From IMG/VR virus record IMGVR_UViG_3300009705_003007, positions 1 to 64,000 of that record: a stretch of DNA of 64,000 nt. One strand, given 5' to 3'. The first letter of the stretch is position 1; each line of letters opens with the position of its first letter. The position numbers were made by a program, and so were the translations under genes. This document shows positions 5,944 to 62,418 of the stretch, in pieces. The notes beneath the pieces are model-generated. The model made no database searches and was not told where the DNA came from. It saw only the letters and a program-made list of their open reading frames with translations. This stretch comes from a virus.

Positions 5944-6958
5944 CCGGATTAAAGTCGAGTCTAAAGATTTAGAAGGAAAGAAGAAAATTGTCTATGTAAA
6001 AATCCCAGACACTAGAATAAACAAAGAAGCTCAACTAGCTTACAACCAAGCTTTTAGAGACGCTTTGCAGTCTGGAGCGATTTTAAGACAAAAACTTACC
6101 AATGTTCTAGAAGAGCAGGGTGTTTGGGACGACGAAAAAGAAAAACAATACAAAGATGTTATGAGTTCAATTAGCGAAGGAGAGAAGTCACTAAAAAAAG
6201 GTGGCATTACTCTTTCTGAAGCTAGAGAAACAGCCCTTAACATGAAGAGAAAACGTGGAGAATTTCGCGGCCTAATAGCAGAACGTAGTTCAATGGACGG
6301 CAACACTGCGGAAGGTCAAGCGGACAATGAAAGGTTTTCTTTTTTAGTCTATCGTTGTTTACTCCAAGATAATGGATCACAACTATTTGCTTCCAAAGAA
6401 GATTATGAAGAAAACGCTAATGAGCCATACGTGGTTGATGCGGCTGGGCAACTTGCCGAAAAGCTTTATGGTTTAGACCCAGACTATGAAAGCAATCTTC
6501 CAGAAAGTAAATTCCTAACAAACTATAAGTTAGCAGACAAGAAACTGCGCCTTATTAATAAAGACGGTCACTTGATTGACATTGACGAAGATGGTGTGGA
6601 AAGACTACTTGATGAAGATAATAGATTCATTGCTTATGATGACGATGGTGAATCTTACTACATTAGTAGAACAGGTGAAAAAATTGATGCAGAAGGGGAT
6701 ATTGTTGGTGAAGCATTTTCTCCTTTTCTAGATGATGGTGGTAAACCGATTCCAGTACCGGGAAAGAAAAAATCCAAAATTGAAGCCTCGGACGAAACTG
6801 AAGATTCTGACGAAACAGAAGAAACAGAAGAAACAGAAGAAACAGTAGAAGCTGAAATGGTTGGTGATTTTGGTGAGGGTACACCAATTGGAGAGCCTGA
6901 AGAAGCACCAGTCAAAAAAAGAGGACGACCAAAGAAAAAACAGACAACAACCGAATAG
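5924..6958 (+). CDS. Tail assembly chaperone-like protein, paralogue B, with RGRP tail
   Basis: A 344-residue protein and paralogue of the 4457 gene: it shares the A-L-x-S-G block (FRDALQSG) followed by a G-V-W-D-D-E-K-E-K segment, and an FSFLVYRCLLQDNG core near residue 139. Residues about 205-270 form an aspartate-rich repetitive section (INKDGHLIDIDEDGVERLLDED). The end holds a D/E-T repeat (SDETEETEETEETVEAE) encoded by a 9-bp tandem repeat, then K-K-R-G-R-P-K-K-K, which has the core of an AT-hook. It is followed within 70 bp by an intrinsic terminator, so it ends the transcript that precedes the tape measure. The function is inferred from position and charge. Confidence 0.6.
   Translation: MAKSKNNRIKVESKDLEGKKKIVYVKIPDTRINKEAQLAYNQAFRDALQSGAILRQKLTNVLEEQGVWDDEKEKQYKDVMSSISEGEKSLKKGGITLSEARETALNMKRKRGEFRGLIAERSSMDGNTAEGQADNERFSFLVYRCLLQDNGSQLFASKEDYEENANEPYVVDAAGQLAEKLYGLDPDYESNLPESKFLTNYKLADKKLRLINKDGHLIDIDEDGVERLLDEDNRFIAYDDDGESYYISRTGEKIDAEGDIVGEAFSPFLDDGGKPIPVPGKKKSKIEASDETEDSDETEETEETEETVEAEMVGDFGEGTPIGEPEEAPVKKRGRPKKKQTTTE
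6812..6845 (+). repeat. 9-bp tandem repeat encoding an acidic E-T-E tract
   Basis: About three and a half copies of GAAACAGAA lie inside the 3' end of the 5924 gene and encode repeated E-T-E. Copy number can change by slippage without shifting the frame because the unit is 9 bp. Confidence 0.7.
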
Positions 6959-6973
6959 TAAACATTGGAAAGT

Positions 6974-7017
6974 GGGTGTGTCGTTAGCCGTAAGCTACCG
7001 GTACACCCCTTTTTTTT
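6974..7017 (+). terminator. Intrinsic terminator directly before the tape measure gene
   Basis: GGGTGTGTCGTTAGC (6974-6988) pairs with GCTACCGGTACACCC (6994-7008) around a CGTAA loop. This is a 15-position stem with one mismatch and two G-U pairs, followed by C and eight T (7010-7017). The tape measure ATG is at 7029, so only 11 bases separate the T-run from the start. The tape measure must therefore be transcribed by read-through. Confidence 0.85.
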
Positions 7018-7028
7018 AGGGTATCTCA

Positions 7029-10000
7029 ATGGCCGAAAAATTTGTTTTAACAGCTCAGCTTAATCTACAAGCTCCTACAAACGTCAAACAAGTCCTTAGT
7101 TCGATGAAGAACGACCTAAAGTCTGTTTCTGTCGATATTGATGTTAAGAAAGGAGCGCAGGCTGTTAAGAAGCTAAACCAAGTTGCAAAGGCTACTAAAG
7201 AAGTTGAGTCAAGCGCAAAGAAAGCCAGCACTGGTGCTGATCAGATGGGTCGAGCTTTCGGCGGTGCTTTGAAAAATGTTCTCAAATACGATCTTGCTCG
7301 TAGAGTTTTCTCCGCGTTTACTAATACTATTGAACAAGGACTTCAAGACGCGATCAAGTTTGAACGAGAGATGATTAAAATCGCTCAGGTTTCTGGAGCG
7401 ACCGCAAAAGAACTAAAAGGTCTTGAGCGAACAGTTACTAAACTCTCAACCTCTTTGGGTGTGTCTTCATCAAGTTTAGTTAGGGTTGGTTTAATTCTAA
7501 AGCAAACAGGCTTAGGTATTAGAGATACGGCGACTGCCATGGAAGCTCTTGCTAAGACAGAGCTTGCTCCTACGTTTGATAACATTACCAACACTGCGGA
7601 AACAGCCATTGCTGCCATGAGGCAGTTTAAAATAGAAGCTAGCGGTTTAGAAGCTTTATTAAGTAAGATTAATACAGTAGCCGCAAACTTTGCTGTCGAA
7701 GCTTCCGATATTGGCGTGGCTGTTAAACGTGCCGGTGGTGCATTTAATGCTGCTGGTGGTCAAGTAGAAGAACTTATTGCTTTGTTTACTTCTGTGCGTT
7801 CTACAACTCGTGAAACAGCAGAAACAATTGCTACTGGTTTTCGTACTATATTTACTCGTATGCAAAGACCTACCACAATTAAGTTTTTGCGTCAGTTTGG
7901 TGTTGAGTTAACAGATCTTCAAGGTAAATTCGTTGGGCCTTTTGAAGCTGTTAAAAGACTAAGTAGCGCTTTACAGGGTTTGGAATCAACAGACCTTAGA
8001 TTCTCTGCTATTGTTGAACAGCTTGGTGGCTTCCGTCAGGTTTCTAAAGTGATTCCTCTTATTAAAGAATTTAGCACCGCTCAGTCTGCAATGAACGCTC
8101 AGTTAGATGGTGCGGGTAGTCTCGCTAAAGACGCTGAGATGGCACAGGCCTCTCTTGCTATCCAGCTGATAAAATTGTCGGAAAACGTTAAAGAGTTATT
8201 CCGTGAGATTGCTGGTTCTACCGCCTTTAAGGAAATGGCCAAATTTGCCCTAATGGCTGCCAATGCTGCGGTTACGTTAGGCAAAGCCATCGCTCCTATT
8301 ATACCTCTGATTACTGCGATGATGGCGTTTAAGGCTGTTAAATGGGGTGGTGGAAAAATGTTTGGTGGCGGCGGAATTAAGAATGCTATGTTTGGTGGTG
8401 GTAGTGGCGGCGGTAGTGGCGGTGGTATGGGAATGGGTTTCAGTGGGGGTGGTCGAGTAAGACGCTTTAGCGGCGGTGGTTGGGTTCCCGGTAGTGGTAA
8501 TGGAGATACTGTTCCGGCTATGTTACAGCCGGGAGAATTTGTGCTGCGTAAATCTGCGGCTCAGGCTTATGGGTCACAACTCAATGGCATGAATGGGTAC
8601 GCTAAAGGTGGCAAAACTGTGTCAGTTAAGGGACAAACCCTACGAGGTTTCTCAAAAGTAGGAGCCATGGTTAACGAACCGGGAAAACGCAGATGGACAC
8701 ACCGAACTACAAAACCAGACGGATCTCAGAACCCATGGGGTAAATCAGCGCCTTCTGATCAATTTAATCCGGGCGATAGGTTTAGTGTTCAAAATGAACA
8801 TATGAAGATTCCCATGGGTCAAAATAATCTACAGAGTCATTTAAATGATACTGAACGGTCAGCCCTTATGACATTCAAGGGTATATCAGCCGGAAAAGCT
8901 TGGGAAAAAGTGTTAAAGAAGAGTAACACACTGAAGAAATCAGGGGGTTCAAGTCCAGCTTTAGACGGAACGATTGGTGGTACTCTAGGCGATGCTGCTA
9001 TTAGTTCTTCAGCACATAGCCCAGCAAGCATTGCTGGAAAATACTTTAGACATATGGCACTGGGTAAAAATAAGGCTGGGTTTTTAGGTGGTTTTGCAAC
9101 AACACACAAATCAGACAAGCTTGATATGCCCGGATCGGTAACAGAATTCCTTCCCCAAAAACAGCAGATTAAAGCCGCTTTAACGCAAATTAAATCGAAG
9201 AACAAAACCAACAAACTGGTATTAAAAAAATCTAAGGGCAAATTAGCTAATATTGGGAGGTCTGAAAAATTCGCTAGTGGTGGTGAAGTTCCATCTCTTC
9301 TTACTCCCGGTGAATTTGTTGTTAATAAACAATCAGCTCAATCATTTGGGTACGGCAACCTTCGCAAGATGAACAAGTATGCTGGCGGTGGAACAGTTCG
9401 TAGATACGCTAGCGGTACTGGAGGTACTGGCGTCACGAGTGGTGGCAGCATGGGTATGGGCGGTGGCATGATGATGCCCATGATGATGAGTAACATGATG
9501 GACAGTACTGGTAAAGCTACCAAGGGTATTTATGGAATGGGTGAAGGCGCTATGGGTGCGTACTTCAAAATGAACATGTTCTCTGCCGCTCTTGACATGG
9601 GAATGGATGCAATGGGTCAAGAAGAAGGGGCTACTAGAGAGTTCACAGACGTATTGATGAAAGCCGCTACAGTTTTAGGCACAATCAAAGGCGCAACAGG
9701 TGCGGGTGGCGGTGCTGGAATGCTTAGTAAGGCAGCTGACGTGGGAATGGCTGCGTCTATGTTTCAGGGTGGCGGTATAAAAGGTGCTGCCACTCGAATG
9801 GGAGGCAAGGCTCTTGCAGGAGGAGCGCAAGGGATAAAAGGAGTCGCGACAAAAGGTTTGTTCTGGAAGCAGGTAGCAAAGAGGGAAGATGTAGCCACAA
9901 AGGCAGCCAAGAGAGTTCTTGCGTTAGAAAAATCAAAGATTGCTGCGATTAAAACACAAGGCAAAGCGCAGAAGGAGTTGACTAAACTTACCCAAAAGAA

Positions 10001-13000
10001 AATAAAATGGGAGCTTAGACTGAAAGAGAAGACGGCGGTTGGAAAGACTGCTAGAGCAGCGGAGGGAGCAGCAAAGACGGAAGCGACCAAGTTTGCTCAA
10101 CATGGAACTGCGATGAGGACGGAGAAGGCTCGTCTAACGGAAGTCAGGGCAAAACAGATGAGGGGACAGAGCGGTCTCGGCTGGAACAATCCTCGAACCC
10201 CGGGAAGCTCACCGAGAATTGATCCGAGATTTGGCCAAGAGTCAACCCGCTCGATTAAATCTTCAAAAGTAGCAGGCAAAGAATCGATAATGCAAGGGAA
10301 GAAGGCACTAGAAGCTGAAAAGTCAGCAGCTAGCCTAGCTAAAAACCTCACAAAGGCCGACACAGCAATACTAGCTCAAGAAAAAGCTCTTCAAAAGAGC
10401 GCAAGAACAATATCAACGGCGGGTAAAAAAATGTCCGTTATGACAAAAATGGGGAAAGCCGCAAAGACTGCCGCCACCGCCCTAAAAGCCTTTACCGTAG
10501 TTGCTCTTGTAGCAGAAATTGCCGTTGACCAATGGGGAAAAGCAATAGCGGAAGGTGCGAAAAAGCAATTAACAAAAGATGCAAAATTTGAAGGTCTTGC
10601 AGACAAAGGTCTTACAGACGAAGAAGCGGCCAAAGCTAAATCAGGTATTAAGACAGGTCGAACTATAAGCGGGGCTGCTACAGGCGCTGGTATTGGAGCA
10701 GCAATCGGAAGCATAATCATGCCCGGAGTTGGTACTGCTGTTGGTGCTATTATTGGTGGAATGGCCGGAGCTTGGGTGTCGTGGATACGAGCGGAGGAAG
10801 AAGCAGAAAAAGCAATTCAAACAGCTAGATTTACACACGCTTCAGACAAAATGACCGAAGCGATGGAGCAGTATGCTAACAAACAAATCGGCGCGTCAGA
10901 AACAATGGATCATGTGATGGATGCGCATCGAAAAATGGTAGAAAACTCTGGTGGGGTTGGTCTAACAGAAGGTATCAATGAAGCAGCAAAAGCAGAAAAA
11001 AACATGCATGCCTTAGTTAAGAATCTGGCAAATGAATCAAATAGCGTTGAACAATTTGACGCTAAGGTAGCCAATACCACTGGGGTACAACAAGGTCTAA
11101 CAGATAAGGTTATAGATAAAGAATACCTAGAAACCGTTAGAGATGAAATTGAAGCAAGAATAGAATCACAGGAAAGACTGCAAGAGTATGTTGATGAGCA
11201 AAACAAGGCAATAAGAGAGCTAGCGAGCTTACGTCAGGTAGGAAAAATATTTGATGAAGTTGGAAATAGAGTTAAAAGATTTGGAGATATAGTTAGCGCT
11301 ATTGCTGATCCAACTGGAGGAATATCTATTGGTGGTGGAATGGAAGAGAAGTTAGCTTTAAGCGGAGCGAGAGATCCAGCGTCCATCAAAAGATTTGAAG
11401 ATGCCGTTGATAGAATGGGTAACGTAGCAGGAGAGGCCGGAGAAACTGGTTTAGGACAAGGAGGAATGAAAGGCAGGGTTAAGGATGCGGCGTTTATGGA
11501 AAGAAACATAGGTGACGCTTTACAGATAGCGTCAGGCTCAAATGCAATAGGGGATGACTTTAGGGGAGAAATTCAAGATCAATTAGAGGCTGCCGCAGAT
11601 CTTGAAGGGTATACCATAAGTGAAGACATGCAAAAGCATTTCGACTCCGTTCTTATGAATATGGACGTGATAGACCTTAAAGATGCAAGCAAGATGGACG
11701 AAAATATCGGTAAGTTTACGGAAGCTCATTCGGAATTTGTTGAAACATACCGCAAGGCCGCCAAAATTATGGACGACCACAACAAAAGGTTGCTTGGTAT
11801 GTATGCGGCCAAAAATAAAGTAGAGTCGCAACAACTTGCAAAAAGACAAGAAATTATAACTGCTCAATATAACGCGGAACAAAACTACCTAAAACAGACA
11901 CAGTCGCCGGGTGTTGATTTTATGACAGATCAGGGAGCAGTAGACGCTCAGTTTAACAGGCGTCAAATGGCTGATCTAGCAGGGGTTGGAGATCTTGGGG
12001 GTGGAAAAAAGGGAACCGATCTAGCTGGCGATGTCGGTGGTATTGGTAAAGCCTATAGACAAGTAAGCAAGCAGTTGATTCAAAGTAATAGGGAAATACA
12101 AGAGCAGGGTCTTAAAGGTGTTAAACCCGGCGGAGCGAATAGTTCTTTAGTTAAAGACGCAGACGCACAGATAAAAGCAAACGCAAAACTTAGAAAACAA
12201 TATGAATTACTTGGTGGTGTTTTAGATAAATATAAGAACACACAAGAAAGACTCATTGCTATTAATGAAAAAATGGCACAAGAGCAAAAACTTCAAGAGA
12301 CTCTTCAAGATCTAGCTTTCAATCTTACTTATGGAACCGCTGAAGAAAAAGAAGACTCTGCATATCTAGTGAATCAAATTGAAAAAGCTAGATCGGCTGG
12401 TAGAGTAAGAGGCGTTGTTGATCCTGAAATGGAAAGAACTGTTGCTAAGTTCCTTAAAACTTCTGGTATGGAAGGTGGTCAAGAAGCAATTAGTAATGAG
12501 ATTTCTGCCACTCTTCACGAAGCTGGCGCTGCTTTTACAAGCGCTGTCGGTAATGCTTTTGCTGGAATCACGGCACCTTCAGAAAAAATGTTAGAGCTAG
12601 CAAAACAAAAACTCGAAATTGAAAAACAAGCAATTCAGGCAATGTCGTCTCAAGAGGGAGAGATAGGAGATAGGGGAGATAGTATAAAAAGCGCAATCAT
12701 TGAAGCTAATGATAAGTTCATTGAAGACCTTAGAAGCTTGCTGATGGGTGAGAAAACTAGGGAAATGGACATTAAGAGTAAGGGGATGGAAGAAGACCTA
12801 AAATCAAACTCTGAGCTATTGTCCTACCTTGAAAAAATTGGCATTGATTCTGACGACCCGTTAGCGAAATCACAAATCGAGGCCTTAAAAAGCTACAACG
12901 CTAAGATGGACGAGGCGAATCGACTTAATGAGGCGGCTGGGGGAGGGGCGACTGAACTCGACGTGGGAAAATTCTCGGGGAAAACTGTAGACTTTTCCAA

Positions 13001-56113: not shown

Positions 56114-56673
56114 GTGTTATATTCTTGTAGCAATTTAATAATTAATTCTATTTTACATTTTATGTCTTCTTTTGAACACGAAGTAAAGCTTCCTATTTCA
56201 CTATTTGTATATCCCTGAATTCTAAGCTTTACTATAAACTTATTCTCTTCCGATAGCAAATCCGGAAGATAGTCTTCTATATCTTCTTTGTTGTCGGAGG
56301 TCTTGTCTTGTTCTAATACACATCTAAATTCTGAATTTCCAATCTTGTTTACTTTTTTGTTCATTGTAGAGATTGCGTTTTTTATACAAATGCTTGCAAA
56401 CGTGCTAAATATAGCTTTATTTTTATCATGAGTTCTAATAGCCTTAAGGAGGCCAATCAAACCAGCTTGAATATAATCTTCAAAATTATTGTCATTCAAA
56501 AAGCAAAGAGCTTGAGAAACAACCAATCCGTAGTTTTGATGGATCAGTTTTTCCTCAAGCTCTTTTTGTTCTTCTAGTATATTATCAGCTAGATTCTTGC
56601 TTTTGGTTTTCTTGGCTGTTAAAGAGTTTGAATTCTTTAACCCTGAATTTTGTTGAGAATCTTTTGTTACCAT
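56110..56673 (-). CDS. Sigma-70-family RNA polymerase sigma factor
   Basis: A 187-residue protein. Region 2 is clear at about 37-100: L-I-H-Q-N-Y-G-L-V-V-S-Q-A, then F-E-D-Y-I-Q-A-G-L-I-G-L-L-K-A-I and F-S-T-F-A-S-I-C-I-K-N-A-I. Region 4 is a short helix-turn-helix at about 140-180 (LRIQGYTNSEIGSFTSCS). Regions 1 and 3 are absent, as in small phage late sigma factors of the T4 gp55 kind. The ATG at 56673 is the only ATG, GTG or TTG upstream of region 2, so the gene overlaps ssb by 89 bp. It may direct host RNA polymerase to the -35-less TGGTGTATAAT promoters of the virion genes; that link is inferred. Confidence 0.88.
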   Translation of the reverse strand: MVTKDSQQNSGLKNSNSLTAKKTKSKNLADNILEEQKELEEKLIHQNYGLVVSQALCFLNDNNFEDYIQAGLIGLLKAIRTHDKNKAIFSTFASICIKNAISTMNKKVNKIGNSEFRCVLEQDKTSDNKEDIEDYLPDLLSEENKFIVKLRIQGYTNSEIGSFTSCSKEDIKCKIELIIKLLQEYNT

Positions 56674-56944
56674 TTTTATCAGTCCAAGAGTTGTTTCTTG
56701 CGGAGGCGACTAAATCAATAACGTCACCCTTGTCGCAATATCTTTCTATCGTGATTCCACCTGAGTCCCACGCTTCAAAATCGAAAAAATTGACACTCTT
56801 TTTCTTTTCTCCGTTTTTTTCTTTTCTATACTCACTAATCGCTAAAGTAAAAGTGCATAGACTTGTATGCTCGAACTCTACAATTTCTGGAGCGTTTGTT
56901 AACTTTCCAATAAACCGACAATAGTTTGAAATAGTGTTAGCCAT
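56585..56944 (-). CDS. ssb: Single-stranded DNA-binding protein
   Basis: A 119-residue OB-fold protein. ATG 56971 is in frame, but ATG 56944 is preceded by AAGGAAAG and gives the expected start M-A-N-T-I-S-N-Y-C-R-F-I-G-K-L. Seen: F-T-L-A-I-S-E-Y-R-K near residue 34, N-F-F-D-F-E-A-W near 54, E-R-Y-C-D-K-G-D-V-I-D-L-V near 66 and F-R-V-K-E-F-K near 100, as in bacterial and phage SSB. The C-tail (QENQKQESS) lacks the acidic D-D-x-I-P-F tip of bacterial SSB, so partner recruitment must differ. Its 3' part overlaps the sigma gene. A -35/-10 pair lies upstream at 56986-57013. Confidence 0.88.
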   Translation of the reverse strand: MANTISNYCRFIGKLTNAPEIVEFEHTSLCTFTLAISEYRKEKNGEKKKSVNFFDFEAWDSGGITIERYCDKGDVIDLVASARNNSWTDKNGNKRFSTKFRVKEFKLFNSQENQKQESS

Positions 56945-56985: not shown

Positions 56986-57013
56986 TGGTATGCAAGTCTG
57001 AGGTTTTTGTCAA
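56986..57013 (-). promoter_or_regulatory. Candidate sigma-70 promoter for ssb and downstream genes
   Basis: Reading leftward, a perfect TTGACA (57013-57008) is followed after 16 bases by TACCAT (56991-56986, four of six -10 positions), 41 bp before the ssb start. It overlaps the stop of the polymerase C-terminal gene. This 65-bp gap is the second sizeable one on the minus strand. It would drive ssb, sigma and the glycan block using the host sigma. Confidence 0.4.
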
Positions 57014-58602
57014 CTTAGTTCTATCACGTCGTCTACAATTAAGCCATCGTCTATTTGGTATCGTTTATTTTTAGAACTCTGACCTACTAGTATTACATTG
57101 TTTCCTTCGTATAAAACGTTTTTGTATTCCTTCCACTTGTCCGAAAAGATTGTGACTGTATCCAAAGCTCCTGTATGATCTTCGACACACAGAAATGCCA
57201 TTTCAACACCCTTCATCTTTCCCTTTTTAGTTACGTATCTTTTAACTTCTGATATAGTAACGGCCATCTTGACACCGTTTTTCTTGCCGTCCAAGAACTC
57301 TTTAATCGTTGTGTTGGCGAGCTTTGTATCGTAGGTTTCCACCCTTGAGTACGTCAACGCAACCCCAAGATAATTTTCTTCTGTCCTTATAATCCATTCT
57401 GGGTCATCTTTCATTGAGTGAGATGGTTTTTCACAATAAATTACTAAATCAGATATTATTCCTGATCTTCTACTATTAAAAGCAGCACCACCTTCTTTCT
57501 TGGTGGGTGACATCTTTTTTAGCAAGTTCATAAGGTCTTTATACTTATTATAATTGTTAATACCCCATTCTTGCTCTTTTTTTGTTAGGTTTCCCCAAGT
57601 ATCAGTTTCATCTAGCATTTGTTTTCTTGACTCTGGAAGATGAGCAAAAAAACCAATTGATATCAATGCCACAAGCATTCTTGAGTTAATCTTGGGTGAG
57701 ACCAACACAAGAAACTCAAACCAAGACCAATCAGGTAGTTTTTTGCCTATCTCTTCTTCTGCAATCCTAATTTCATCTTTAAATTTTTCTATCTGCTTCA
57801 TGCCTATAGATTTCACATCGAGAAGACCAAAATATATTTTGCGGTCAATAATGTCAGTTGAAACATTAACATCTTGTATTGAAGGAGGACTCATGTAGAT
57901 TTCACTATTCTTAGCATCGTTAACAAGCTCTTTTACTTCTTGTTGTGGATCAGGTTTTCCAGAAGAGTGAATAAGATAGTTGCAGTAAAACTCAAGAGGA
58001 TGGTGAGATTTAGCGTAAGCGCTCCAATAAGCACAGATGGCATAAGACACAGCGTGGGATTTGTTAAACGAATACCTACTTGAGGCTTCAATCCAGCTAA
58101 AGATTTCTTCAGCCTCTTCTTCGTTAACGATCTTCTCTACAATGGCTCCTTTTAAAAACTTCTTTTTAACCTCAGCCATAAGGTCTGCCTTCTTCTTACC
58201 AATAGCTTTACGAAGATCGTCTGCTTCCTGAAGGTTAAACCCCGCAAGCTGCTGCACTATTTTCATAGCCTGTTCTTGATAAACAAGAACTCCTTGAGTT
58301 CCTTTTAAGATTGGCTCAAGAGAAGGATGAAGGTATGTTATTTCTTCTTTAAGGTTTTTTCGATCAACAAACCTTTGGGTCATTGACTTGCCATCTTGGA
58401 TAGCCTTTAATGTTCCCGGTCTAATAATCGAAACTAAAGCAGCAAGCTCTTCTATGTTTCTAGGTCTAACACGTTTAGCCCAAGATTTTCCAAGATTGCT
58501 TTCTAATTGAAAAACCCCTTTTGTCTTCCCTGAGCATATTAAGTCCCAAGTTTTTTCATCGCAAAAATCAATACTGAGAACATCAAATGTGGAGGTTTCC
58601 AT
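57010..58602 (-). CDS. dnaE: DNA polymerase III alpha, C-terminal part (fingers to OB)
   Basis: A 530-residue protein. ATG 58638 is in frame but lies inside the exonuclease gene; ATG 58602 gives the start M-E-T-S-T-F-D-V-L-S-I-D-F, in the position of the family's linker after the palm. Seen: G-K-T-K-G-V-F-Q-L-E-S, I-R-P-G-T-L, G-V-L-V-Y-Q-E-Q-A-M, R-K-A-I-G-K-K-K and R-Y-S-F-N-K-S-H-A-V-S-Y. A helix-hairpin-helix region (LLDVKSIGMKQIEKF) and an OB domain at about 445-530 follow. It completes the 638-residue N-terminal part encoded at 59480; together 1168 residues, the length of normal bacterial DnaE. No intein is visible. It overlaps the exonuclease gene by 20 bp. Confidence 0.93.
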   Translation of the reverse strand: METSTFDVLSIDFCDEKTWDLICSGKTKGVFQLESNLGKSWAKRVRPRNIEELAALVSIIRPGTLKAIQDGKSMTQRFVDRKNLKEEITYLHPSLEPILKGTQGVLVYQEQAMKIVQQLAGFNLQEADDLRKAIGKKKADLMAEVKKKFLKGAIVEKIVNEEEAEEIFSWIEASSRYSFNKSHAVSYAICAYWSAYAKSHHPLEFYCNYLIHSSGKPDPQQEVKELVNDAKNSEIYMSPPSIQDVNVSTDIIDRKIYFGLLDVKSIGMKQIEKFKDEIRIAEEEIGKKLPDWSWFEFLVLVSPKINSRMLVALISIGFFAHLPESRKQMLDETDTWGNLTKKEQEWGINNYNKYKDLMNLLKKMSPTKKEGGAAFNSRRSGIISDLVIYCEKPSHSMKDDPEWIIRTEENYLGVALTYSRVETYDTKLANTTIKEFLDGKKNGVKMAVTISEVKRYVTKKGKMKGVEMAFLCVEDHTGALDTVTIFSDKWKEYKNVLYEGNNVILVGQSSKNKRYQIDDGLIVDDVIELS

Positions 58603-59266
58603 CTGCAAAAGCCTTTTCAAATTTAATTTTTGGAGCAATTCGTCTGTGGAGCTTCATAAAGCCTATCATCAAATTTGCCGTATCTTTAACATCTTGCAAT
58701 GCGTCGTGAGCATTTTCCTTACTTATACCAAACAGGTCACGCATTGAATCCATGCTTAACGATTTTACATCGGCATTATTTTCCATCCACATCCAAACAT
58801 TATCCATTACATCAATTCTATGGATTTTATTAAACAGTACTTGCTTTCCTGTTTTCTTGTCGGTTGGGCCGTATTGCTCACACATGCGCTGAACAATAGG
58901 CATGTCGAATCCTACTATGTTGTAACCGGCGGCTACTGGAGCGTAGTAGGGAGTGCCTTTGAAGTTGTACCTGTTAACAAAATTGGCGAACTTTTTCCAA
59001 ACCGTTCTAGCAGCAGGAGCTTTAGCTAGCTCTTCTCTTGTCTTGCCGTTCACGGCTAGGGCTTCGTCTTCTATTGGGTCTAGCCCTTTCTCGATAGCTT
59101 CCTCGTCGTCTAGAATAGGACGAATTAAACTTTCAAAGTACCCCTCTGGCTGAACGGTTAACTTTCTTCCGTGTATGGCGACTGCCGCAATTTGAACTGG
59201 TTGCGTCTTGTCTGGGTTACGAGAACCTGTCTCAAAATCGAATACAATAATATCTCTATAGTTCAT
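58583..59266 (-). CDS. DEDDh 3'-5' exonuclease (DnaQ-like proofreading subunit)
   Basis: A 227-residue protein. Motif ExoI is V-F-D-F-E-T-G (D10, E12), ExoII is G-Y-N-I-V-G-F-D-M-P near residue 127 and ExoIII is H-D-A-L-Q-D-V-K-D near 186: a complete DEDDh set. It is probably the proofreading subunit for the split polymerase because its gene lies between the two polymerase parts and overlaps both small neighbours (4 and 20 bp). An unusual insertion (P-T-D-K-K-T-G-K-Q) follows ExoII. It could also be a separate DNA-repair nuclease. Confidence 0.9.
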   Translation of the reverse strand: MNYRDIIVFDFETGSRNPDKTQPVQIAAVAIHGRKLTVQPEGYFESLIRPILDDEEAIEKGLDPIEDEALAVNGKTREELAKAPAARTVWKKFANFVNRYNFKGTPYYAPVAAGYNIVGFDMPIVQRMCEQYGPTDKKTGKQVLFNKIHRIDVMDNVWMWMENNADVKSLSMDSMRDLFGISKENAHDALQDVKDTANLMIGFMKLHRRIAPKIKFEKAFADGNLHI

Positions 59267-59487
59267 TTGATCTTCCTTCTTATTTCAAAAAATTTATCTA
59301 AAGCTTCGTCAACGTCTTCATATAGTTCGCTAAAAAAATATGAATGTACTTGGTATTTAGTCCGTTTAATAACTGATTGATAAAAATCGTTTATTTTACA
59401 AATAGACAGACTCTTGTACTCTGTGTATTTTCCATTTTGGATTCTGCTCTTTATGTTTTGTCGGTAGCTTTTGTTTTGTTTAGACAT
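59263..59487 (-). CDS. Small basic protein between polymerase and exonuclease genes
   Basis: A 74-residue protein. A TTG at 59499 is in frame, but ATG 59487 follows GAAAG and overlaps the polymerase stop by 8 bp. The N-terminal 30 residues are very basic (KQNKSYRQNIKSRIQNGKY), the C-terminal half is acidic and helical (FSELYEDVDEALDKFFEIRRKI). Its place within the split polymerase operon hints at a replication accessory role such as bridging the two polymerase parts; no family is recognised. Confidence 0.6.
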   Translation of the reverse strand: MSKQNKSYRQNIKSRIQNGKYTEYKSLSICKINDFYQSVIKRTKYQVHSYFFSELYEDVDEALDKFFEIRRKIK

Positions 59488-61396
59488 TTTCGCTTTCAAG
59501 TTGATCTCTTACGCCCATGATTTTATCTAATAATGAAATTCCAAGTATGTCAAATTTTACATGACCCATAGACTCAAGGTCATTCATTTCCATACCTGCT
59601 ATTTTTTCAGAACCTTTTTTATCTCTAACCATTGGACAAACCTTATCTAGCTTGTGCGAAGATATGACAACGCCCGCTGCGTGTTTACCTTGAGATTTAA
59701 AAGTTCCCTCTATTCTCATTGCTTGCTCAAAGAGTTTAGCATAATCGCCTTCCAGTTGCCCATCATCATTTAATCTACAATATTCTCTTAGCGTATCTGG
59801 TTGGTTCATTAGAGTCCATCTGATTACTGACGGGTTATCCATCTCTGCTAACTGATCAGACACTTCGTGTTCATGAGGTAGACTTTTTGTGATTGCGTTC
59901 ATTTCATCAAAACCGCAGGCCTCGTTCATGCGTAAAACTTCTTTGAGGGCGCTACGTCCTTGTAGTCTACCAAACGTGACCATTTGACCGACTCTTTCTG
60001 AGCCATATTTATTTCTTATGTAATCTATAGTATCGTCGCGTTTTGAAGCTGGTACGTCAATGTCAATATCTGGAAGAGAAACATGACCAGCGGTATTACG
60101 GCCAGCGTTATAAAATCTTTCAAAAATTAAACCATATTCAATTGGGTCTACTTGAGTGATTCCTACTAAGTACGAGATTAAACATCCAGCAGCAGAACCT
60201 CTTCCCGGCCCCGGAATATAACCCTTATTATGAACACTATTGACTATATCTCTAACAATAAGAAAATACCCAGACAGGTTGGCTTGGCTTATAACCTCAA
60301 GTTCTTTTTTCACTCTTTCTGTGTACAACGTCTTTGTTTCTATAGTATTAACTTTTCCAGTTGGGGCAAGTCTACTTACCCACCCTTCTCTACAGAGATT
60401 ACGAAGATGGTCTTCTTCTGACTTGTCTTCAGGGCAGGAAAATTCTGGAAGCATGGGCTGACCAAGAATATCGTAATCTTCACACATGTCAGCTATTTGC
60501 ATAGTGGCTGCTATTTCATGTGGTTGATTAACTGCTTGTATTTCTTCAGGCGAAGGGATATGAAAATTGTTTGATTTCATAAAACCGCCAAAGGCTACAT
60601 CTTTGTTTTCTTCTAGCTTTTTCTTAATTCCACGCAAAGTGGTTTTCATAGCAGAGCAAAGCAGTAACAGTTGGTCGCCAGAGTCTTGTTTTTCTGGGTA
60701 GTGAGAGTCTGCCGTAGCGACGCTTTGAAAATTGTATTTTTTTGCTATGTATCTTAACCCTTGAACAACCAAGCTAGCGGCAGGAGAGTTTTCTTGATCT
60801 ATTGCTTGTATTTCAATAAAGAAGTTTTCCTTACCAAAAATGTCCCGATATTGATTTGCCAGCAAAAGAACCTGATCCACCCATTCGGGATGGATATACC
60901 TTTTAGCTTCCTCTTCTGTTGAGGCAGAGTAGGCTAATTTTACATCAACAAAGATGGCGTTCGCTAGATCGCTTCCAAGATGACCGCTAAAGGCAACCAA
61001 GTCGCCACCTGCGAATTGACCAAGAGTTTTCAAATCAAAGCGAGGTCTGTAGTAAAAGTTTTCTTCATCATTACTTTTTGAAACAGCTTGGATTAAGTTG
61101 TTCCAACCATTTTTGTTTTTAGCTAACACACAAAGATGACTGAGCTTCCTATTTTCTTCGTTCTTGATTGTGCAATCGGAGGGGCTTAGGTAGAACTCAC
61201 AACCAAGTATTGGCTTAATGTTCTTAGAACGACAAGCTTGAGTAAAGGCCACAGCGCCTGATATGGTGCCGTGGTCAGTTAAGGCACAAGACTCAAAGCC
61301 TAGTTCTGAACAGCGTGAGGCAACCTGTGAAGGCTTTGAGAGGCCGTCTAGGAGACTATAGTGCGTATGCAGGTGTAAGGGCGTCCAGTTTGTCAT
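59480..61396 (-). CDS. dnaE: DNA polymerase III alpha, N-terminal part (PHP plus palm, all three catalytic Asp)
   Basis: A 638-residue protein. The PHP domain opens with P-L-H-L-H-T-H-Y-S-L-L-D-G (H8, H10, H12) and A-L-T-D-H-G-T. The palm carries G-P-G-R-G-S-A-A-G near residue 400, P-D-I-D-I-D (D443, D445), and K-F-D-I-L-G (D616), so all three catalytic aspartates are here. Between them are R-V-G-Q-M-V-T-F-G and G-K-H-A-A-G-V-V-I, both family signatures. It stops about 20 residues after D616 in L-E-S-E-N-V, exactly where an intact DnaE continues into the fingers. The rest is the separate gene at 57010. The start is at the ATG that overlaps the previous stop as ATGA. Confidence 0.95.
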   Translation of the reverse strand: MTNWTPLHLHTHYSLLDGLSKPSQVASRCSELGFESCALTDHGTISGAVAFTQACRSKNIKPILGCEFYLSPSDCTIKNEENRKLSHLCVLAKNKNGWNNLIQAVSKSNDEENFYYRPRFDLKTLGQFAGGDLVAFSGHLGSDLANAIFVDVKLAYSASTEEEAKRYIHPEWVDQVLLLANQYRDIFGKENFFIEIQAIDQENSPAASLVVQGLRYIAKKYNFQSVATADSHYPEKQDSGDQLLLLCSAMKTTLRGIKKKLEENKDVAFGGFMKSNNFHIPSPEEIQAVNQPHEIAATMQIADMCEDYDILGQPMLPEFSCPEDKSEEDHLRNLCREGWVSRLAPTGKVNTIETKTLYTERVKKELEVISQANLSGYFLIVRDIVNSVHNKGYIPGPGRGSAAGCLISYLVGITQVDPIEYGLIFERFYNAGRNTAGHVSLPDIDIDVPASKRDDTIDYIRNKYGSERVGQMVTFGRLQGRSALKEVLRMNEACGFDEMNAITKSLPHEHEVSDQLAEMDNPSVIRWTLMNQPDTLREYCRLNDDGQLEGDYAKLFEQAMRIEGTFKSQGKHAAGVVISSHKLDKVCPMVRDKKGSEKIAGMEMNDLESMGHVKFDILGISLLDKIMGVRDQLESENV

Positions 61397-62418
61397 TTTT
61401 CATCTTTCTTATCGTTGTCAACCAACCTACCACCACCGTCTCCGTAGGTAGTAATTTTATCAATAACTCCATACTCTTCAACAACTGCATTTACGCCTTT
61501 TAACACGAGTTCGTCTCGTATGTGCTGACAAAGGCTTTTTCCAGAGTCTTCGTATTCTTCGCTAAACTTACAAAGCCTTTGACACTTCCAATGTTTATGC
61601 TCATTAGAAAGAAGTCTGGGGTTTTGAATATCTCTGATTTGCTCAAATTTCTTACGTAGTATGTCTTCTGCTTTTTGGTAGTCGTCTTCGTCAAACACAA
61701 AAGAAAACAATCCACCTGCATTAATGTAATATATGCTTACTGAAAATTCACGTTCAGGATACATATTTTTAAGGGCGTAGTAATACAATAATAACTGAGT
61801 GTCGTTTTGTAGTTTACTGTATGTTTTTTCTTCGCCGGTTGCCCAGTCTAACCTCTTCCCTGTTTTGTAATCTAGTATTTCATAATACTCTTCGTTTTGT
61901 TTAAGTATTAAGTCAACCGTTCCCTTGATTGACAAATACCCTTCAATGGTTTTTCCACCAAGGTCGTATGAATATTTAGCCCACGGCTTCTTAATCTCAA
62001 AGTCAAAAAATAATTCCGTAGCAACCACCTCTTGGTTTCTAGGGTCTAACACTCCACCTTCATACGCTACCGCTTTTTCAGCCCACGATAGACATTTTCT
62101 TTTGTCTGCTTGGGTTATGTTAACTTCTGGAAAAGCAGAACTGTAATATTCAAAAGCAATATCGTTGAGCAATTCAAGATTATCACATTCTTCTAAGGTG
62201 AGAGTTTTTCCTGTCTCCTCGTCCTTCACCACATCAAGCCCATTAAGAATAGCGACCTTCTTGTCTCCAAGGGTTTGCATTACCTTGTGGGTTATTGTCC
62301 CCATTAAGGCTTTTTTGTTAGTCTTGTCTTTGAAAGATAAGTTGTACTGCAAAAAATACTTTTGCTGACAAAATTCTAACGTTCCTAAACTACTGCTTCT
62401 GTGGTAACAAACTATCAT
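61393..62418 (-). CDS. Cas4/AddB-type PD-(D/E)XK nuclease with Fe-S cysteines
   Basis: A 341-residue protein. Nuclease motifs are G-T-V-D-L-I near residue 165 and E-I-L-D-Y-K-T-G-K near 180. Cysteine C17 (L-E-F-C-Q-Q-K-Y) and the C-terminal C279-x3-C283-x13-C297 give the four-cysteine Fe-S clasp seen in Cas4 and AddB nucleases, where the first cysteine precedes the nuclease domain and three follow it. No helicase domain or cas gene is present, so a phage DNA end-processing role in replication or recombination is more likely than CRISPR adaptation. It overlaps the next upstream gene by 29 bp and the polymerase by ATGA. Confidence 0.85.
   Translation of the reverse strand: MIVCYHRSSSLGTLEFCQQKYFLQYNLSFKDKTNKKALMGTITHKVMQTLGDKKVAILNGLDVVKDEETGKTLTLEECDNLELLNDIAFEYYSSAFPEVNITQADKRKCLSWAEKAVAYEGGVLDPRNQEVVATELFFDFEIKKPWAKYSYDLGGKTIEGYLSIKGTVDLILKQNEEYYEILDYKTGKRLDWATGEEKTYSKLQNDTQLLLYYYALKNMYPEREFSVSIYYINAGGLFSFVFDEDDYQKAEDILRKKFEQIRDIQNPRLLSNEHKHWKCQRLCKFSEEYEDSGKSLCQHIRDELVLKGVNAVVEEYGVIDKITTYGDGGGRLVDNDKKDEK

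Follow-up and report, generated by a model that had tools for sequence, protein, structure and literature searches.

The window analyzed here, 64 kb (positions 1 to 64,000) out of the 79,431-bp viral record IMGVR_UViG_3300009705_003007 of IMG/VR, carries a dnaE gene for the DNA polymerase III alpha subunit that is divided into two genes, N and C, with an exonuclease gene, X, and a small gene, S, between them. The locus occupies positions 57010-61396 and its genes follow one another on the minus strand in the order N, S, X, C. The evidence described below makes it very probable that the phage produces a replicative C-family polymerase as two polypeptides, which assemble non-covalently and for which X serves as proofreader. 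The physical association of N and C, the polymerase activity and the action of X on the N-C polymerase are what we infer from this evidence. The four genes are the following:

59480..61396, minus strand: N, N-part of DnaE with PHP, palm and thumb, 638 amino acids (aa) (Pfam)
59263..59487, minus strand: S, small protein of 74 aa, open reading frame (ORF) between N and X
58583..59266, minus strand: X, DEDDh 3'-5' exonuclease, 227 aa (RNase_T, 5.1e-15)
57010..58602, minus strand: C, C-part of DnaE with fingers, HhH and OB fold, 530 aa (Pfam)

N matched the Pfam models PHP (2.7e-37) and DNA_pol3_alpha (2.3e-69), and C matched DNA_pol3_finger (3.2e-48) and HHH_6 (3.7e-06). From their domain order, with PHP first and OB last and not in the order of PolC, N and C are assigned as the parts of a C-family polymerase of the DnaE type. 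The key motifs of N and C are these:

60056..60073, minus strand: PDIDID motif (N442-447) with the catalytic residues D443 and D445, invariant in 66/66 aligned N-parts
59540..59557, minus strand: KFDILG motif with the third catalytic residue, D616, invariant in 66/66 N-parts
58054..58077, minus strand: RYSFNKSH motif, C176-183, uninterrupted; the split-intein site of cyanobacterial DnaE

In the window N, only a 19-residue tail separates the KFDILG motif from the stop codon. Profile alignment to solved structures placed the cut between residues ~573 and 584 of the E. coli alpha subunit and between ~637 and 642 of that of Thermus aquaticus (Taq). The two parts also fall on consecutive halves of one-chain models: residues 1-573 and 579-1020 of the NCBIfam model polc, and residues 42-615 (N) and 625-1073 (C) of PHROG 405. 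N and C together have 1168 aa, compared with 1160 aa for E. coli alpha (chain length in 5fku), and the sum is ~1150-1170 aa in most full-PHP members of the clade described below.

AlphaFold2 models of N and C, each folded as a single chain, had a predicted local distance difference test score (pLDDT) of 92.5 and 90.5, respectively; the confidence fell at the ends created by the cut, to a mean of 74 for the last residues of N and of 61 for the first ten of C. The N model superimposed on residues 3-577 of E. coli alpha (2hnh; Z 39.2, 569 residues, root mean square deviation (rmsd) 2.9) and on residues 5-640 of Taq alpha (2hpi; Z 41.3). The C model matched residues 569-910 of E. coli alpha (2hnh; Z 20.7, 323 residues, rmsd 3.1) and, with the OB fold included, residues 569-1074 (5fku; Z 22.1, 457 residues), the rmsd of 9.0 in this last case reflecting movement of the domains. 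A preliminary description of the locus had reported a split dnaE with PHP and all three catalytic aspartates in the N gene, a C gene starting at the palm/fingers boundary, an exonuclease gene and a 74-residue gene between the halves, and a normal DnaE length for their sum; the domain searches, alignments and lengths given above agree with it on each of these.

Relatives were sought in viral contigs, genome contigs and phage records, which yielded 229 distinct dnaE loci. Of these, 120 shared the cut of the window and had X located between the halves. Three more were split without X between the halves (L104, phiT1 and KKP_3916), 18 ended before C, and in the remaining 88 N and C formed a single ORF. 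The single-ORF loci were bacterial or other phage dnaE genes, with the exception of one lineage (L103, see below); a continuous dnaE in close relatives, which the preliminary description had named as evidence against the split, was thus not found for the clade. The split loci represent a large group, mostly of marine phages, in which the arrangement is old and stable. Two of them, L197 and L198, came from bacterial and archaeal metagenome-assembled genomes and are probably binned phage contigs. No cultured relatives of the clade were found: the best matches in the phage collections were ~34% identical in N, and the nearest bacterial sequences ~33-36%. Two human faecal records labelled as phage (H1 and H4), among the top-ranked matches, had a fused dnaE; in H4 it is followed by a phosphofructokinase-like gene, so that this record looks like bacterial DNA.

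A tree of 77 rows was built from the joined N and C alignment, and a set of 26 rows was used for a second tree and for the approximately unbiased (AU) test. Members of the split clade together with L103 formed one branch, apart from bacterial and other phage DnaE, with a Shimodaira-Hasegawa-like approximate likelihood ratio (SH-aLRT) support of 100 in the 77-row tree; in the 26-row tree the support for the split clade was 100/100. These trees indicate that the split arose once within the clade. Rossellomorea phage phiT1 (PV767480) has the same cut, in the form of gp20, a 49-aa gp19 and gp18, and fell outside the split clade in the 77-row tree, with long branches nearby. Its placement elsewhere in the tree suggests that the same seam was cut twice, the split of phiT1 being apparently independent of that of the clade. 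In Rhodococcus phage ChewyVIII, Microbacterium phage Dauntless and Mycobacterium phage Nilo, dnaE is split after PHP instead.

One 206-kb contig (G006, the contig of L307) contained two N-X-C loci, at 52-57 kb and ~198-204 kb, which were ~80% identical in DNA. C was uninterrupted in one of them; the other had a break in C near residue 180. This could be due either to two phages joined in the assembly or to a real duplication.

A second contig was 99.9% identical to the window across the locus (5 mismatches over 5,500 bp). Since this contig and 120 distinct loci share the cut, the split is not an assembly error; together with the low ratios of nonsynonymous to synonymous substitution (dN/dS) given next, they also exclude a pseudogene. 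Pairwise dN/dS values were calculated for six close relatives, using pairs with a defined dS; many pairs were near dS saturation and the values are therefore rough. They were 0.05-0.09 for N, 0.01-0.03 for X, 0.07-0.15 for C and 0.09-0.33, mostly below 0.2, for S. A gene that is broken or decaying in a phage replicated by the DnaE of its host is, in consequence, a most improbable explanation. Every bacterium has a DnaE to offer, and the phages may borrow host replication parts, as no match to a beta-clamp domain was found in 18 related records, which suggests that a host clamp, or an unrecognised one, is used. Against such a decay stand dN/dS values well below 1 in all four genes, the invariant catalytic residues, and a single ancient origin with persistence in 120 loci.

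The same 18 records (37-224 kb) contained no match to PolA or PolB domains, and N of DnaE and X matched in 18/18. N and C are therefore the parts of the only recognisable polymerase in the records of the clade. This bears on a different possibility, namely that N (with X) and C are separate enzymes, N being for example a minimal polymerase or nuclease and C a DNA-binding factor. Reduced modules of this kind do exist, such as the minimal split Pol III alpha that occurs beside PolB (PMC7824862). The records offer no other recognisable polymerase, and in one lineage nested within the clade a single ORF again covers N and fingers. In solved DnaE structures, moreover, the fingers contribute to the site that holds nucleotide and template. 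Taken together, these observations make separate enzymes improbable.

The rejoined lineage comprises six contigs (L096-L100 and L103), in which N and residues 1-351 of C are encoded by a single ORF of 854 aa, the S-family gene and X are located downstream from it, and the OB part has its own gene. In L103 the genes are as follows:

6474-9038: fused N-fingers ORF
9028-9282: S
10008-10727: X
11704-12231: OB part

L103 was nested in the split clade with an ultrafast bootstrap (UFBoot) support of 97 and an SH-aLRT of 93, and its placement outside the clade was rejected by the AU test (p = 0.013; 26 rows, with a simpler substitution model). The simplest reading of this topology would be that N and the fingers part became one gene again. 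In this lineage the break now lies, in effect, between fingers and OB.

Assembly as two chains would not be needed if the halves were covalently joined into a one-chain DnaE, either by a split intein or by splicing of an intron carrying S and X. Inteins are common in the dnaE genes of these phages, and intein models matched several relatives (L041, L055, L335, L104, L050 and L060) at other sites, showing that the models work on these genes; no intein model matched N or C of the window. In three relatives the intein lies within C near residues 58-65, at the RPG motif (L041 C:11645-13972, L055 C:10500-12863, L335 C:8830-11217), and an HNH motif was detected in those of L041 and L055. The distant split relatives L104 and L105 (C ORF 7848-10403) have a contiguous intein of ~279 aa exactly at RY^SFNKSH, and L050 appears to carry a split intein at this site. 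In L060, L062, L065 and L066, N is broken in the palm (query residues ~400-445) by an insert of 0.8-1.2 kb; a weak Hint match suggests that the break in L060 is a further split intein.

The tails at the cut itself leave too few residues for the N half of an intein: the 104 N-parts end 12-40 residues past the last conserved motif, and across the clade the C-parts have 17-61 residues ahead of their first one. No intron family reached the Rfam gathering threshold, the only match being a sub-threshold one to RsmY inside N. Five relatives (L057, L055, L056, L087 and L308) have an N-X gap of at most 10 nucleotides (nt) and none between X and C, which leaves no space for an intron between the halves; L087 has a 4-nt overlap of N with X, and its X is directly followed by C; L308 has overlaps of 14 nt (N-X) and 8 nt (X-C), and the corresponding values for L057 are +2 and -17. 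Covalent joining of the halves by either route is accordingly very hard to sustain. The preliminary description had noted an intact RYSFNKSH motif within the C-part and no intein ends, and had named a missed intein or intron at the ends as a finding that would refute its reading; the intein hidden Markov models, with the relatives as positive controls, and the Rfam and spacing analyses yielded neither. A programmed frameshift that would join X to C was also considered and was ruled out by the variable X-C spacing, which took values of -20, -17, -11, -8, -4, -1 and 0, positive values, and more than 700 nt where a gene is inserted.

X matched PHROG 192, 'DNA polymerase exonuclease subunit' (6.1e-27), and its DEDDh residues D10, E12, D121, H187 and D192 were invariant in 35/35 aligned sequences. 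Its first motif is located as follows:

59231..59239, minus strand: Exo I motif D10-F-E12 of X (residue alignment of X)

The metal-site histidines H8 and H10 of PHP were not both retained in 18/66 N-parts, and in one subclade the N-part has only ~500-540 aa, with a PHP that is ~100 residues shorter and X still present. Because X stays conserved where the PHP histidines are lost or the N-part is short, proofreading in the clade most likely rests on X.

It is conceivable, if doubtful, that the split is itself kept by selection, N, X and C forming an obligate heterotrimer with X placed on or close to the palm/fingers seam, where it would help to hold the chains together; E. coli epsilon, in contrast, docks on PHP. 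The location of X between N and C in 120 split loci, and the retention of its active site even where PHP lacks metal-binding residues or is ~100 residues shorter, would fit such a heterotrimer. The basal L104 is the sole member of the clade seen without X between N and C.

S had no convincing Pfam match and no PHROG match. The earlier mention of a small gene between the halves is true of the window and does not describe a general part of the system: an S-family ORF occupies the N-X slot in 65/114 split loci, and the other 49/114 lack the family. S as a required connector is ruled out clade-wide by these 49 loci, which have other small ORFs or nothing in this position; a few split loci have nothing between N and X. 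The families found in the slot differ by subclade: some have the S family, others a family of ~59 aa with the motif 'VSCCKSxN' or one of 82-93 aa.

Additional slot genes in the relatives, recognised by eye only, resemble HNH endonucleases, methyltransferases, uracil-DNA glycosylases and sugar epimerases. In L006, L039, L120 and L121 an ORF of ~257 aa, methyltransferase-like by eye, is inserted between X and C; it shares its first residues, MET-S/C-T-Y, with C of the relatives, as if a translational-coupling site had been taken over. The slots tolerate cargo genes, and one may speculate that a mobile HNH gene originally opened the gap between the halves.

The genes of the locus are tightly packed. 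N starts within the stop codon of the upstream gene (ATGA), the start of S overlaps the stop of N by 8 nt, X starts within the stop of S (ATGA), and the last 20 nt of X are shared with the start of C. An alternative in-frame TTG is present upstream of C at 58638; close relatives keep the ATG at 58602. Purine-rich, Shine-Dalgarno-like sequences precede several of the starts. Among 114 relatives, the X and C genes overlap in 70 and are spaced within 20 nt in 81. Overlapping starts of this kind are the pattern of translationally coupled genes, the products of which are made together. The neighbouring genes are:

61393..62418, minus strand: upstream neighbour, PD-(D/E)XK nuclease (Pfam PDDEXK_1, 1e-23)
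56585..56944, minus strand: downstream neighbour, SSB gene with ATG start, replication module (Pfam SSB, 2.6e-15)

The same record also encodes a DnaB-like helicase, a primase, a UvsX-like recombinase, SSB and a deoxynucleoside monophosphate kinase (Pfam, PHROG). Elsewhere in the window, a tRNA-Ser (GGA) was called at 8470-8562 within a plus-strand ORF of 2719 aa and is possibly a false positive.

In the two-chain polymerase that we propose, N, with PHP, palm and thumb, would provide the active-site aspartates, and C, with fingers, HhH and OB, would provide nucleotide and template binding. The chains would be produced together from one replication operon, by head-to-tail genes with overlapping starts, and would fold against each other at the seam, where DnaE made as one chain has a short linker. 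X, the gene of which lies between the halves, would be a dedicated epsilon-like proofreading subunit. Where the preliminary description had presented two-chain assembly of the product as a necessity, we strongly infer it, because N and C form the sole recognisable polymerase, both parts are under purifying selection, L103 has re-fused them and gp43 of T4-like phages provides a precedent (see below).

Several points weigh against this proposal. The predicted structures cover single chains only. The distances of N and C are correlated (r = 0.88), which reflects shared descent and is no proof of contact. The relatives come from metagenome contigs, with no isolate among them, and possible incompleteness of the 18 records could hide another polymerase.

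Bacteria make replicative DnaE as one polypeptide, and in cyanobacteria splicing restores a single chain. A large and apparently successful phage group whose only recognisable polymerase is made as two chains, considered together with its naturally re-fused lineage and with another phage cut at the identical seam, provides a direct way to ask what role the palm-fingers linker has. The clade also allows one to ask how coupling to proofreading is achieved when the PHP site is not intact, and whether the order of the genes drives assembly during translation. For the engineering of C-family polymerases, the conserved seam offers a place at which the chain is naturally split.

The phage enzyme resembles bacterial DnaE1 (E. 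coli, Thermus aquaticus) in the domain order PHP-palm-thumb-fingers-HhH-OB, the Asp triad and the length; it differs in being encoded by two genes instead of one, with an exonuclease gene between them, and in that C ends after the OB fold. Cyanobacterial DnaE-n and DnaE-c are likewise the products of two genes. In cyanobacteria a split intein heals the cut, which lies at RY^CFNKSH, whereas the phage cut is located earlier, at the palm/fingers boundary, the motif is intact and no intein was found. phiT1 shares the junction and has a small ORF between the halves (gp20/gp19/gp18), but lacks an exonuclease between them and belongs elsewhere in the tree.

A survey of bacterial Pol III alpha mentioned the intein-split cyanobacterial genes, and also fragments that usually result from frameshifts (PMC3919608). 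In the T4-like Aeromonas phages 25 and 44RR, PolB is split into gp43A and gp43B with no intein, and 43A and 43B of phage 25 co-purify and are active; the split NrdA of Aeh1 is a further biochemical precedent (PMC2988022). The gp43 pairs are phage replicative polymerases in two chains without an intein, as proposed here, but they belong to family B, which has an unrelated fold, and a seg endonuclease or an untranslated spacer, not an exonuclease gene, lies between the halves. The PolB of Methanothermobacter also consists of two polypeptides (PMC7776575); this two-chain polymerase is cellular, archaeal and of family B. Group 2.2 jumbo phages have a minimal split Pol III alpha, confined to the catalytic and template-binding modules, the genes of which lie far apart and accompany a PolB (Iyer et al. 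2021, PMC7824862). Here too a C-family core is contained in two phage proteins, which are predicted to reconstitute the enzyme; in contrast to this minimal form, the window has PHP, HhH and OB all present in one operon, and PolB had no match in the 18 records. No description of a full-length DnaE split at the palm/fingers boundary with an exonuclease gene between the halves was found in the open-licence literature, and an earlier notice elsewhere is possible. Split phage polymerases are already known, and the full-length, PHP-bearing form with an internal exonuclease gene is a new variant.

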